Source: Nitrospira tepida (GTDB lineage: Bacteria > Nitrospirota > Nitrospiria > Nitrospirales > Nitrospiraceae). From it: a stretch of DNA of 64,000 nt. This document shows positions 16,939-22,285 of this stretch, piece after piece. A program made the position numbers and the translations under genes. A model generated the notes under the pieces. It did not search any database. It had not been told where the DNA came from and saw nothing but the letters and a program-made list of their open reading frames with translations. The stretch covers positions 372,001 to 436,000 of the forward strand of contig NZ_OX365700.1 of assembly GCF_947241125.1 (NCBI RefSeq). Reading direction: 5' to 3'. Every line of letters begins with the position of its first letter. Positions within the stretch are counted from its first letter, which is position 1.

Positions 16939-18573
16939 ATGAGATCCCATCTCGTACCAGCCTCCGGTTTCTTCCTCACCCTCTTGGTTCTTGCTCACCT
17001 GCCGGCGACCCAGGCGATGGGTGGATACACCGTCGATCCGGCTGTCGAAAGCGTGGTCCGCGGAGACCAGCATTGGGCCTTTCCCGCCGGCTATATCCGC
17101 CTGAGCATGCCATCCGAAGGCGTGGTCAATCAAGTCACCGGGGACAGCCAGGTGGCGGGAAGCCGGATGCTGGTGGGCGGGACCCAACGGCTCTACCTGA
17201 AGATCAAGCCCGGGAGCGAGACCGCGGTCGGTGATCTCCTGACGGTCTATCGCAAACAGCATAAGGTCTTTCATCCCGCCACTCGACAATACCTGGGGGA
17301 ACTCATCCATCAATTTGGTGTCGTCAAAGTTGTCGCAATAGAAGGGCAATTCGCTCATGGGCAGTTGGTGGCCTCATTTGCGCCGATTGGACCGGGCGAT
17401 ATGTTGACCCGGTTCGTTCCCCCGACTGTTGAGAGCCGATCTGAGTCCGGTCGAGCGGCAGCCGATGTCCATGGGATCATCGTTGATTTCCCCGCCAACC
17501 GTATGCTCGTCGGGCAAATGCAGGTGGTGTATTTGGACATTGGGCGAAACGACGGCCTGCAGGTGGGCGATTATTTTGAAATCTATCGGGTGGGAGGGGG
17601 CTTGCCTCGTCGGGTCATCGGAGAGGTCAAGGTTCTGTCCTTGGAAGATTCCACCTCGACCGTCCTAGTCACCAAGGCGATCGCTCCCTTGCTGATCGGA
17701 GATCGAGTGGGAATGCGTACCGCGACCACCCCGATCCCGGTGGTTGAAGTGCCGGAGGAGAGCCCTTCGAACAAGAGCGATGTCCAACAATTGGCCAGGA
17801 AAATCGATGACCTGACTCGTGCGAGCGGTGGTCGGGCCGGCATGCAGGTGGAACAGACCGGCAACACGGTCGTTCTCAGCGTGAACGACCTGGCTGACCG
17901 ATTGTATTTCGAGTCCGGTGAGGCCGCGATCAAACCGGATTTCCAGCCGATTCTGAAGCAGATGGGAGACATTCTCCGGCAGGAGGGAGCCGACACGAAG
18001 ATCCGGATCGAAGGCCATGCCGACAGTATGGAAATCGGGCCGTCACTGAGAAGCAAATATCCAACGAACCTGGAGTTATCCAAGGCCCGCGCGATAAACG
18101 TGGCCCGGTACCTCGTAGAGGAAGCCGGAATTGCGCCGGAGCGGCTTTCGTCCGTCGGGCATGGAGCGTCTCGGCCGGTCGCCACCAATGCCACCGATCA
18201 GGGACGACGAAAGAATCGCCGCGTCGAGGTCGTCCTCTACACGCCATCCAGGCCTCCGGACGCACCGCAGGCTCCTCAGACCTCCCCTCAGGGCGAGTCG
18301 GGGGGAAATTTCACTCAGGTCCAAAGCCCCGCGCCAACCATTCCCAATGGCCTTTCTCCTGAACCGGCCGTAGGTAGTACGCTGTCGCCGAGTCCGGTTG
18401 CGGCCGCGCCGGTCGAGAGTCAACCGGCCCAAGGTTCTGGATCTTTGGTAGATCAATCTTCGGACGGCGCGGAGCCGGCAGGTTCTGAATCGGCTCCGGA
18501 CACGGTTCCCCTGGATCGATCGGAGCCGGCGGAGCCGCAGTCCGCCGACGCTGCTCCCGCCCCCGCTCCGTAG
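16939..18573 (+). CDS. Secreted OmpA-family protein with duplicated N-terminal domain
   Basis: A 544-residue envelope protein. It begins with a Sec signal peptide (hydrophobic core FFLTLLVLAHLPA, cleavage expected after ATQA). Two related modules follow, one around YLKIKPGSETAVGDLL (near residue 93) and one around YLDIGRNDGLQVGD (near 193), suggesting an internal duplication. Residues of about 318-434 form an OmpA-like peptidoglycan-binding domain, with IEGHADS and SKARAINVARYL, ending in GRRKNRRVEVVL. The last 110 residues are low-complexity Pro/Ala/Ser/Glu. It probably tethers something to the peptidoglycan in the periplasm. The partner is unknown, and it stands alone behind its own promoter. 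Confidence 0.88.
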   Translation: MRSHLVPASGFFLTLLVLAHLPATQAMGGYTVDPAVESVVRGDQHWAFPAGYIRLSMPSEGVVNQVTGDSQVAGSRMLVGGTQRLYLKIKPGSETAVGDLLTVYRKQHKVFHPATRQYLGELIHQFGVVKVVAIEGQFAHGQLVASFAPIGPGDMLTRFVPPTVESRSESGRAAADVHGIIVDFPANRMLVGQMQVVYLDIGRNDGLQVGDYFEIYRVGGGLPRRVIGEVKVLSLEDSTSTVLVTKAIAPLLIGDRVGMRTATTPIPVVEVPEESPSNKSDVQQLARKIDDLTRASGGRAGMQVEQTGNTVVLSVNDLADRLYFESGEAAIKPDFQPILKQMGDILRQEGADTKIRIEGHADSMEIGPSLRSKYPTNLELSKARAINVARYLVEEAGIAPERLSSVGHGASRPVATNATDQGRRKNRRVEVVLYTPSRPPDAPQAPQTSPQGESGGNFTQVQSPAPTIPNGLSPEPAVGSTLSPSPVAAAPVESQPAQGSGSLVDQSSDGAEPAGSESAPDTVPLDRSEPAEPQSADAAPAPAP

Positions 18574-18603: not shown

Positions 18604-18632
18604 TTGTCCCCCTGGATCGCGGCTGCTAGAAT
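18604..18632 (+). promoter_or_regulatory. Predicted promoter of priA (leaderless arrangement)
   Basis: TTGTCC (18604-18609) and TAGAAT (18627-18632) are separated by 17 bp. The -10 ends 7 nt before the in-frame GTG at 18640, so the transcript would begin at or next to that start codon. Confidence 0.6.
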
Positions 18633-18639
18633 GCGGCGC

Positions 18640-20964
18640 GTGGGAACCGATCGGTTCGAGCCAAGCACCTGCGCCCAATCCGAGTTCCCGCCACGATTTG
18701 CCGAAGTGGTCGTGCCTCGCCGCCTGCATCGGTCCTTTACCTACTCCATCCCGGCCTCGCTTCAGTCGGTGGTTCGAGTGGGCACCACTGTCACCGTTCC
18801 CTTTGGGTCCACGACCGTTAGCGGCATCATCGTAGACCTCGCCGTGCATCCCCGGATTCCACGCCCCCCCAAAGGATGGCGGGCGATTCTTGCCGTCGGC
18901 CATCGAGAAGACGATGCGCTCGACCCTCAATTGTTGAGCCTCGCCCGATGGGCGGCTGAGTATTATCTGGCCCCGTTGGGGCAATGTCTGCCGTTGCTCC
19001 TGCCGCCGAGATCCTTGCAGCCACCACAGATGAAATTTGTGCTCGCACTCGAGGGAAGGACGGGCCCCGGAGGCCACGTCTCGCTCAATGGGTTGGAAAC
19101 GGAGGTCCTCGCGCGATTGAAAAAGTCGAAGCGTGGCCGGACTCTGTCGATGCTCAAACGAAGCCTGCCATATCTGACACAGGATACGCTGCTGTCGCTG
19201 CTGAATCGCGGACTCGTGAAGGCCGTCGCGACTGACCCTGTAAACCAGAGTATGACTCAGGCCCTCGGCGAGACCAAGCCGGGAGTTCAGCTTGCCTGGC
19301 AGGGGAAGGCCGGTAAACCAGTTGCGGCTGCGCCGGAGCCCCTCTTGCGCGATATCCAGGAATCGGTGATCCGGCGATGCCGGATGCCGATCTTGGTCGA
19401 GGCGGAAGAGCAAGTACGGACACTAGTGATGGTCGCGGCCGCCCGCATGGTCTTGGAAACCAATCGACGATGTCTGTTTATCACTCCGGAGATCCGGCGG
19501 GCTTGCGCGATCGGTGATACGCTCGCGGCACACTGGGGGGCTCGGGTGGCCCTGCTGCATAGCGGGCTCTCACCAGCCGCGCGTGTCAGCACCTGGCAGC
19601 GCATCCGGAGCGGGAGAGCCGATGTGGTGATCGGGACCAGATCGGCCGTGTTCGCGCCCTTGCTGAATCTGGGCCTGATCGGTGTCGAGGAGGAGGAAAG
19701 TCCCTCCTACAAGGAGGAGCGGGAACCCCACTACCATGCGAGGGAGGTCGCCTGGCACCGGTGCGAGCAGGAGCAGGCCGTCCTCCTGCTGGCCAGCGGC
19801 CATGCCTCTCTGGAAACGCAAGAAAAGGTCAGGTTGAAGGGCTCTCTCTGGTCCCTTCCAGCCGAGCCATCGAACGTTCCGATCGAGGTGGTCGATCTTG
19901 CGCAAAGCCCGTTCGGCTCCGTCCTGTCTGGTGCCCTGCTTGAAGGCATGCGCCGGACCCTGGATGCGGGGCAGAGAGTGGTGCTGTATGTGAACCGGCG
20001 GGGCTATGCCCCGTCGCTGACCTGCGGAGCTTGCGGCAACGCGCCGAGCTGCACACGTTGTTCCGTGCCGCTCATGTTCTCCCGCCAGGACCGCCTCCTG
20101 ACCTGCCGGTATTGCGGCGGTCGGACTGCGGCTCCGGACCGTTGCCTGGTCTGTTCCGGCACCGAATTTCGATTGATCGGCTTCGGCACTGAGCGGCTGG
20201 AAGAAGAAGTTCGCAGCCAATTTCCGTCCGCCCGTATCCTGCGCCGAGATCGAGACGAGGTGGGCTCACGATCAAAGGGCATGCCATCGTGGGAGGCTAT
20301 GGGGACCCGCTCGTGGGATATCCTGATCGGCACGAGACTGGTCCTGCATGAGCCTGCCGCCCAAGGCTCTGTCCTATTGGGACTCCCCTTGGCCGACGCA
20401 GGACTCCATGTGCCGGATTTTCGGGCGGCCGAGCGAACCTATCACAGTCTGTTGGATGCCATGGCCTTGGTCGAGGGCCAGACCGGCGCTCGAGCCATCC
20501 TCCAGACCTTCCTGCCCCACCATCACGTCATCCGAGCGATTGCCGAAGGCCGTCGGGACCTGTTCACGAATGCGGAACTGGAGCTGCGGAAGGCGCTGGG
20601 CTATCCGCCGTTTGCCAGTCTGATCGTGCTGCAGGTGTCAGGAGGAGACGAACCGGCCGTTCACCGAGCCATAGAGCAATGGGCTACGTTGTTTCGGAAA
20701 GAGGTGGGCCTGCGGGAAGAGCCGGGCTCCGGGCACGCTGCCCGATCCGGGTCCCGGGTGAGGCTCCCGATTGACGTGTTGGGTCCGGTGCCGGCCCCTG
20801 TCGCGCGGCTGCGGGGCCAATACCGATGGCGCCTGCTGGTCAAGACGACGGAGGGGGCGGAGGCTCGGGAACTGGTGCGCAGGACGCTCGAGGATCTCTC
20901 CCGTCTGGTGAGACGCAGGACCCTCAAGTTCGAGGTGGATGTGGACCCCGTGGACCTGGGCTAA
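18640..20964 (+). CDS. priA: PriA-family primosomal protein with eroded helicase motor
   Basis: A PriA homologue (primosomal protein N', replication restart) of about 774 residues. The N-terminal DNA-binding region is present (FAEVVVPRRLHRSFTYSIP). NRRGYAP, the eight zinc-binding cysteines (CGAC, CTRC, CRYC, CLVC; about residues 461-506) and DFRAAERTYH are all conserved. The motor is not. Where a GxTGSGKT Walker A should be (near 245-262), the sequence reads RMPILVEAEEQVRTLVM. DEEH is replaced by EEEE (near 348), and the GRAGR of motif VI is missing (DAMALVEGQTG). It probably binds DNA or loads primosome parts without ATP-driven unwinding. I chose GTG 18640 from the promoter position; ATG 18631 is the alternative. 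Confidence 0.88.
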   Translation: MGTDRFEPSTCAQSEFPPRFAEVVVPRRLHRSFTYSIPASLQSVVRVGTTVTVPFGSTTVSGIIVDLAVHPRIPRPPKGWRAILAVGHREDDALDPQLLSLARWAAEYYLAPLGQCLPLLLPPRSLQPPQMKFVLALEGRTGPGGHVSLNGLETEVLARLKKSKRGRTLSMLKRSLPYLTQDTLLSLLNRGLVKAVATDPVNQSMTQALGETKPGVQLAWQGKAGKPVAAAPEPLLRDIQESVIRRCRMPILVEAEEQVRTLVMVAAARMVLETNRRCLFITPEIRRACAIGDTLAAHWGARVALLHSGLSPAARVSTWQRIRSGRADVVIGTRSAVFAPLLNLGLIGVEEEESPSYKEEREPHYHAREVAWHRCEQEQAVLLLASGHASLETQEKVRLKGSLWSLPAEPSNVPIEVVDLAQSPFGSVLSGALLEGMRRTLDAGQRVVLYVNRRGYAPSLTCGACGNAPSCTRCSVPLMFSRQDRLLTCRYCGGRTAAPDRCLVCSGTEFRLIGFGTERLEEEVRSQFPSARILRRDRDEVGSRSKGMPSWEAMGTRSWDILIGTRLVLHEPAAQGSVLLGLPLADAGLHVPDFRAAERTYHSLLDAMALVEGQTGARAILQTFLPHHHVIRAIAEGRRDLFTNAELELRKALGYPPFASLIVLQVSGGDEPAVHRAIEQWATLFRKEVGLREEPGSGHAARSGSRVRLPIDVLGPVPAPVARLRGQYRWRLLVKTTEGAEARELVRRTLEDLSRLVRRRTLKFEVDVDPVDLG

Positions 20965-20978
20965 CGGGTCGGATGGGG

Positions 20979-21437
20979 TCAGGCGCGCCGCCCTTTCTGC
21001 GATCGGCGACGCCGTCCAGGGGGAGCACTGCTAGTAGCGTCCCCCACCCGTTGGGGCGATGCTTGAGCGGTTCCTTCCGGTATCCTGGTACGTTTGAACA
21101 GGCCATAGGCGAACGTGAACCAGAAGATCGACGAGAACAGCCCGAAGAGGATGGCGGTCAGCATGTCCTGCATCTGTTGTTCGGTCGGGTCCATGCCGGC
21201 CAGCTTGATCCGGACCATCATGGAAATGGGCCAGGCCAGGCTCTCCGCGCCGAAGAGGAGGGTCGTCCAGGCCCAGATGGCCGTGTTGTTGGAGCAGAGC
21301 CAGCCGAGCGCGCCGGCGATGAGCCCATAGACGGCGACGGCGGCGGGCGGGGACAGCTCGCCCACGGCGATCCACAGGCCCGTTGTGAGGACGAGACTTC
21401 CAAGGAGAGCGTTGAGATAACGAATCCACATGGCCAT
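20979..21437 (-). CDS. Small membrane protein of unknown function
   Basis: A 152-residue protein with four predicted transmembrane helices: around 8-25, 29-48, 52-72 and 92-116. The last helix has the aromatic run FSSIFWFTFAYGLF. It ends with a basic, disordered tail rich in Arg, Lys and Ser. I recognise no family. It converges on priA, with 14 bp between the two ends. Confidence 0.7.
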   Translation of the reverse strand: MAMWIRYLNALLGSLVLTTGLWIAVGELSPPAAVAVYGLIAGALGWLCSNNTAIWAWTTLLFGAESLAWPISMMVRIKLAGMDPTEQQMQDMLTAILFGLFSSIFWFTFAYGLFKRTRIPEGTAQASPQRVGDATSSAPPGRRRRSQKGRRA

Positions 21438-22201: not shown

Positions 22202-22285
22202 TGGTGCCGAAGGCGGGACTTGAACCCGCACGGCTTGCGCCACACGCCCCTCAAACGTGCGTGTCTGCCATTCCACCACTTCGGC
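22202..22285 (-). tRNA. tRNA-Leu (anticodon GAG)
   Basis: Read on the minus strand, the 84-nt sequence folds as a class II tRNA. The acceptor GCCGAAG pairs with CTTCGGC. The anticodon stem CACGT/GCGTG encloses the loop TTGAGGG, giving anticodon GAG. A long variable arm and the T arm (GGGTTCAAGTCCC) follow, and CCA is encoded. A strong promoter lies just upstream. Confidence 0.95.

Follow-up and report, generated by a model that had tools for sequence, protein, structure and literature searches.

The window analysed here, a stretch of 64,000 nucleotides from the Nitrospira tepida genome, carries a priA gene flanked by a gene for an OmpA-family protein and a small convergent gene (Table 1). The assignment as PriA relies on profile, sequence and fold comparisons. 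The NCBIfam model TIGR00595 (priA) was matched above its cut-off (355.7 versus 230.35 bits), and with phmmer the PriA structures 6dgd and 4nl4 aligned over nearly the full length of the protein (E = 1.7e-72). The AlphaFold model had a mean pLDDT of 82 and showed a confident PriA fold; when it was used as a Foldseek query, the top nine PDB matches were all PriA (E = 6e-50). The sequence-only reading of this DNA had claimed a full-length frame, and all 786 codons are open, with the stop where that reading placed it. The start at TTG 18604 is provisional: ATG 18631 and GTG 18640 (the start chosen in that reading) are possible alternatives, and no obvious Shine-Dalgarno sequence was seen before any of the three codons.

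Table 1. Features of the priA locus in the window
Feature	Position	Strand	Remark
OmpA-family gene	16939..18573	+	544-aa frame, directly upstream of priA; context, outside the proposed mechanism
priA, motor-dead PriA homologue	18604..20964	+	786 aa from TTG 18604; assigned by TIGR00595, phmmer and fold match
3'-DNA-end-binding domain (3'BD), PF17764 (PriA_3primeBD)	18703..19005	+	kept; aa 34-134, Pfam E = 7.7e-21
Motif I (Walker A) position	19381..19422	+	RMPILVEAEEQVRT, aa 260-273; P-loop lost; R272 at the place of the catalytic Lys230
Motif II (DEEH) position	19687..19698	+	EEEE, aa 362-365
Aromatic-rich loop region	19723..19764	+	kept; EPHYHAREVAWHRC, aa 374-387; R380, A383, R386
Cysteine-rich region with eight zinc-binding cysteines, within the helicase core	20023..20154	+	kept; aa 474-517
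Motif VI (QVAGRAGRA) position	20455..20478	+	lost; DAMALVEG, aa 618-625
PriA C-terminal domain, PF18074 (PriA_C)	20608..20949	+	kept; aa 669-782, Pfam E = 1.8e-17
Small protein gene, convergent with priA	20979-21437	-	no Pfam match
tRNA-Leu (gag)	22202-22285	-	

An active SF2 helicase carries Walker A (GxTGSGKT), Walker B (DEEH) and a motif VI GRAGR with its arginine finger, and none of these was found in the window PriA. The place of GxTGSGKT is occupied by AEEQVRT. In the AlphaFold model a strand (residues 261-266) is followed by a helix (residues 269-285) with only a two-residue link between them, so that no phosphate-binding loop is predicted. The whole protein was scanned, and neither G-x4-GK[ST] nor GK[ST] was found anywhere in it; hence, no intact Walker A has been displaced to another site. 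Of the acidic residues in motif II, only E364 persists in almost every homologue. His stands in place of the motif III Thr, and the Gly-His of motif V is gone. The absence of Walker A, the change of DEEH to EEEE and the disappearance of GRAGR, all three reported in the sequence-only reading, are thus borne out.

The same reading had described the eight zinc cysteines, NRRGYAP and DFRAAER as kept. All were found: the cysteines at positions 474, 477, 483, 486, 501, 504, 514 and 517, NRRGYAP at 464-470 and DFRAAER at 605-611. The Pfam Zn_ribbon_PriA model scored 22.3 bits, just under its 26-bit cut-off, and in the 3'BD residues Y47, G60, G74, Y121 and G126 are conserved. To place these residues in a wider frame, 142 PriA sequences were aligned, in which 115 positions are at least 90% conserved among the 42 canonical ones. 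The canonical-invariant positions that the order of N. tepida (Nitrospirales) has lost cluster in the Q-motif and in motifs I, II, III, V and VI. Those kept in at least 90% of the sequences of the order include (E. coli numbering) the eight cysteines, Arg338 and Ala341 in the region of the aromatic-rich loop, D567/R569/E572, P631-P632, G674-P675 and D728-P729, as well as the main 3'BD positions Y18, G29, G44, Y88 and G93. The window PriA therefore combines lost helicase motifs with kept DNA-binding domains, a combination expected of a Deinococcus-type PriA pseudohelicase.

The genome is complete (a single contig of 4.73 Mb), and neither PF17764 nor the profile of the order matched any PriA in it besides this one. 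The next matches coincided with RecG and with a 1159-aa Mfd-like protein, both other members of SF2, which rules out a second canonical PriA. PriC and DnaT were detected in none of the 61 genomes of the order searched, with a positive E. coli control, so neither of them is a candidate replacement. Every one of the 61 genomes has RecG, and DciA turned up in each of the 32 genera searched; UvrD-type helicases are also present in the window genome. DciA is widespread among bacteria, and for this reason its presence is weak evidence of a partnership with PriA, which their co-occurrence may nevertheless suggest. A link between motor loss and missing AddAB/RecBCD was rejected, since AddAB-like PDDEXK_1 nucleases are found in genomes with and without a PriA motor alike (141 of 148 genomes, the window genome included).

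To learn whether the loss is lineage-wide, PriAs of the order and of the phylum were compared. Among the PriAs of the order, 64 were aligned (families f1-f4; G036, masked at the motif I site, and the fragment G049 are left out of this set), and not one of them has a P-loop, as compared with 42/42 canonical PriAs. The P-loop was likewise absent from 10 named Nitrospirales-type records with a readable motif I, namely Nitrospira moscoviensis NSP M-1, Nitrospirales bacterium NPIRA06 and eight others labelled Nitrospira, Nitrospirae or Nitrospiraceae. Outside this group GKT was present in 68 of 69 named records; the 69th, from Candidatus Manganitrophus, breaks off at motif I but has DEEH. Canonical PriA was found in the three families sampled from three other orders of the class, and the majority of the remaining families of the phylum have it as well. 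The loss is thus order-wide and not phylum-wide. No 3'BD match was obtained in G035, G040 and G053, three draft genomes of the order sample with at least 200 contigs each; in G035, a C-terminal fragment of PriA lies at the end of a contig. In G155, a 2.0-Mb genome (99% complete, 80 contigs) from the same family as the window genome, PriA was not detectable with TIGR00595 or with the order's profile; either PriA was lost in a reduced relative or it falls in an assembly gap, and PriA may be dispensable in some relatives, as this genome hints. In family f4 (L035, L065, L067 and L068) the P-loop is missing, DEEH is kept and PRRG replaces NRRG at motif IV, a state that is a possible hint at the sequence in which the motifs were lost.

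A second motor-dead clade was found in the phylum, with 35 sequences from ten families (f11, f17, f19, f21-f27; loci L136-L170), with f22 and f24 showing some of the strongest erosion. The PriA tree was built from Nitrospirota sequences without the motif columns. On this tree the motor state needs two changes: clade A, which is the order (bootstrap/SH-aLRT 100/99), and clade B (100/100) are each nested among motor-competent families. A tree constrained to a single motor-dead clade is worse by 36 log units (p-AU 0.0168), which disfavours a single ancestral loss common to both. Clade B has lost the PriA motor independently of clade A. The footprint is alike in the two clades, with the same ATPase residues lost and the same DNA- and zinc-binding ones kept. 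At the Lys230 position Arg is found in 48 of the 64 clade A sequences, mainly in families f1 and f4, and Glu in 28/35 of clade B, and Glu322 is kept in 96 of the 99 motor-dead sequences. The refixing of particular residues at the Lys230 site suggests that a function there continues. Three clade B sequences carry a GKS (N-terminal, residues 46-78 of the frame) that lies far from motif I and was judged to be due to chance. Family f16 (L126-L134) has a motor-competent yet divergent PriA that scores about 440-470 bits against TIGR00595; in it GKTR replaces GKTE after the P-loop, and motif VI reads GRVGR.

Selection was estimated on pairs of relatives, the window priA itself lying outside the estimate. 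The median dN/dS was 0.254 (0.13-0.38) for 21 independent close pairs of motor-dead PriAs and 0.152 for 8 motor-competent pairs. Within motor-dead PriA, pN/pS peaked at 0.388 in the ATP segment and fell to its minimum of 0.164 in the zinc region. We conclude that: i) motor-dead PriA is under purifying selection, and ii) the constraint is somewhat relaxed, since its dN/dS exceeds that of the motor-competent relatives. The earlier claim of selected change rather than decay gains support from fixation across four families, from the retained zinc- and DNA-binding residues and from a dN/dS well below 1.

These data bear on several other explanations. A recent pseudogene, or a sequencing or assembly artefact, would account for the motif loss itself, and nothing further was found in its favour. 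The frame is uninterrupted over 786 aa, independent assemblies from across the order show the same loss, motor-dead PriA is under purifying selection and the gene order is conserved. Many other priA loci of the order, among them that of N. moscoviensis, have a homologue of the OmpA-family gene close to priA, and homologues of the small convergent frame are widely kept beside priA across the order; the retention of both neighbours argues for vertical inheritance. The order-wide pattern refutes the pseudogene and the artefact, whose probability we regard as practically nil, and indicates that the loss reflects neither chance nor decay. It is also extremely improbable that a motor-dead PriA was acquired horizontally from Actinobacteria or Deinococcus-Thermus. 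The window PriA scored 411 bits with PRK05580 and at most 201 bits with the PRK14873 models, which we take to be actinobacterial PriA, so PRK14873 is not its best match; actinobacterial PriA is also a divergent orthologue, and by these scores the window protein is nearer to canonical PriA. In the tree of Nitrospirota sequences, the clade of the order has motor-competent Nitrospirota families as its neighbours, a position that argues for an origin independent of the Deinococcus-Thermus pseudohelicases, even though a motor-dead PriA is documented in that group (PMC4504706). The sequence-only reading had cited actinobacteria as the known precedent. This precedent is weaker than stated, because the literature gave only the comment that actinobacterial PriA is "smaller and very divergent" (PMC1193525) and the proven case is that of Deinococcus radiodurans (PMC4504706).

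Could the protein still hydrolyse ATP at a non-canonical site, formed by R272, E362-E365 or clade-specific residues? The prevalence of Arg at the Lys230 position in the order, the retention of E322 and the DEEH of family f4 would fit such a site. However, the loss extends jointly to the P-loop glycines, Thr231, the Thr of motif III, the Gly of motif V and the two arginines of motif VI; the model has only a two-residue link at the P-loop site, and PMC4504706 states that a K-to-R change by itself abolishes the ATPase of E. coli PriA. We consider residual hydrolysis very unlikely. Another explanation is that the former PriA moonlights in a different DNA-related role outside replication restart, for example in SSB or fork signalling. 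The missing motor, the moderately raised dN/dS and the relative G155 without priA are compatible with it, but all the fork-binding elements and the whole architecture of PriA are kept, the identical set is kept in two independent clades, and this is the only PriA of a genome whose order yielded neither PriC nor DnaT (61 genomes). A moonlighting role is therefore an unlikely explanation.

PriA is regarded as a helicase that nearly all bacteria possess. In a survey of 100 genera from 18 phyla its motifs were well conserved, with Deinococcus-Thermus as the exception (PMC4504706). The PriA of D. radiodurans shows neither ATPase nor helicase activity and binds ssDNA, fork DNA and DnaB; its Walker A and B motifs are degenerate, like those of the protein described here, and no clear PriB or DnaT is present in its genome (PMC4504706). 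Its reported hallmark is a K-to-R change in GKT with poor Walker A/B matches, whereas in the present case, in a different phylum and in two separate clades, the P-loop is missing entirely, together with motifs III, V and VI. E. coli PriA (NP_418370.1; PDB 6dgd, 4nl4 and 8fak) shares with the window PriA the domain order, the fold, the eight zinc cysteines, the 3'BD, the aromatic-rich loop and the C-terminal domain. Unlike the window PriA, it has all SF2 motifs; it is an active 3'-5' helicase and works with PriB, DnaT, DnaC and PriC, of which PriC and DnaT were not found in the genomes of the order searched. ATPase-deficient E. coli PriA mutants are cited in PMC4504706 as viable and as assembling primosomes. 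The K230R variant (priA300) is a functional analogue, a motor-less restart protein in viable cells (PMC4752480, PMC4504706), but it is a single laboratory point mutation in a cell that has the PriB, PriC and DnaT pathways. In recG ruvAB cells of E. coli, priA300 blocks PriA-dependent unwinding of joint molecules (PMC4752480). In Caulobacter, DciA loads DnaB at forks, and a partnership with PriA was suggested there (PMC9825169).

Because of the precedents in D. radiodurans, the E. coli mutant and Caulobacter DciA, we favour a passive fork-binding platform. It is likely that the window protein is a PriA pseudohelicase and the sole PriA of the cell, in which the motor was lost, the fork-recognition and docking surfaces are under selection, and DnaB is reloaded on a passive platform. 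The 3'BD would bind the 3' end of the nascent leading strand, and the helicase lobes and the zinc region would bind the fork junction. PriA, predicted to be devoid of ATPase activity, would then serve as a platform on which DnaB is recruited and handed over without unwinding, probably with DciA as the loader. Where the lagging strand needs clearance, this could be done by RecG, a UvrD-type helicase or another enzyme; alternatively, only forks with an exposed lagging-strand template would be used. The sequence-only reading had left the choice between another helicase and restart without unwinding. We favour the latter over a helicase standing in, and retain both alternatives.

A broader proposal, which we put forward tentatively and think doubtful as it stands, is that loss of the PriA motor is a recurrent adaptive transition, made at least twice in one phylum besides Deinococcus-Thermus, towards ATP-independent docking of DnaB/DciA, with the P-loop site refixed for structure or partner binding. 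The Arg at the Lys230 position in f1 and f4 and the Glu in most of clade B would then represent this refixation, and an unwinding PriA would perhaps be a liability at recombination intermediates. In recG ruvAB cells of E. coli, priA300 blocks PriA-dependent unwinding of joint molecules (PMC4752480).

PriA pseudohelicases are known; what is new, as far as the literature searched shows, is the phylum, the recurrence, with two further independent losses, and an erosion deeper than that reported for Deinococcus-Thermus. In that literature, no paper was found that connects Nitrospira with loss of the PriA motor. The order that holds Nitrospira and a second large clade, both without the PriA motor, are a natural experiment on whether unwinding by PriA is needed for replication restart. 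The direct question, whether a scaffold-only PriA together with DciA is enough for the reloading of DnaB, can now be tested.
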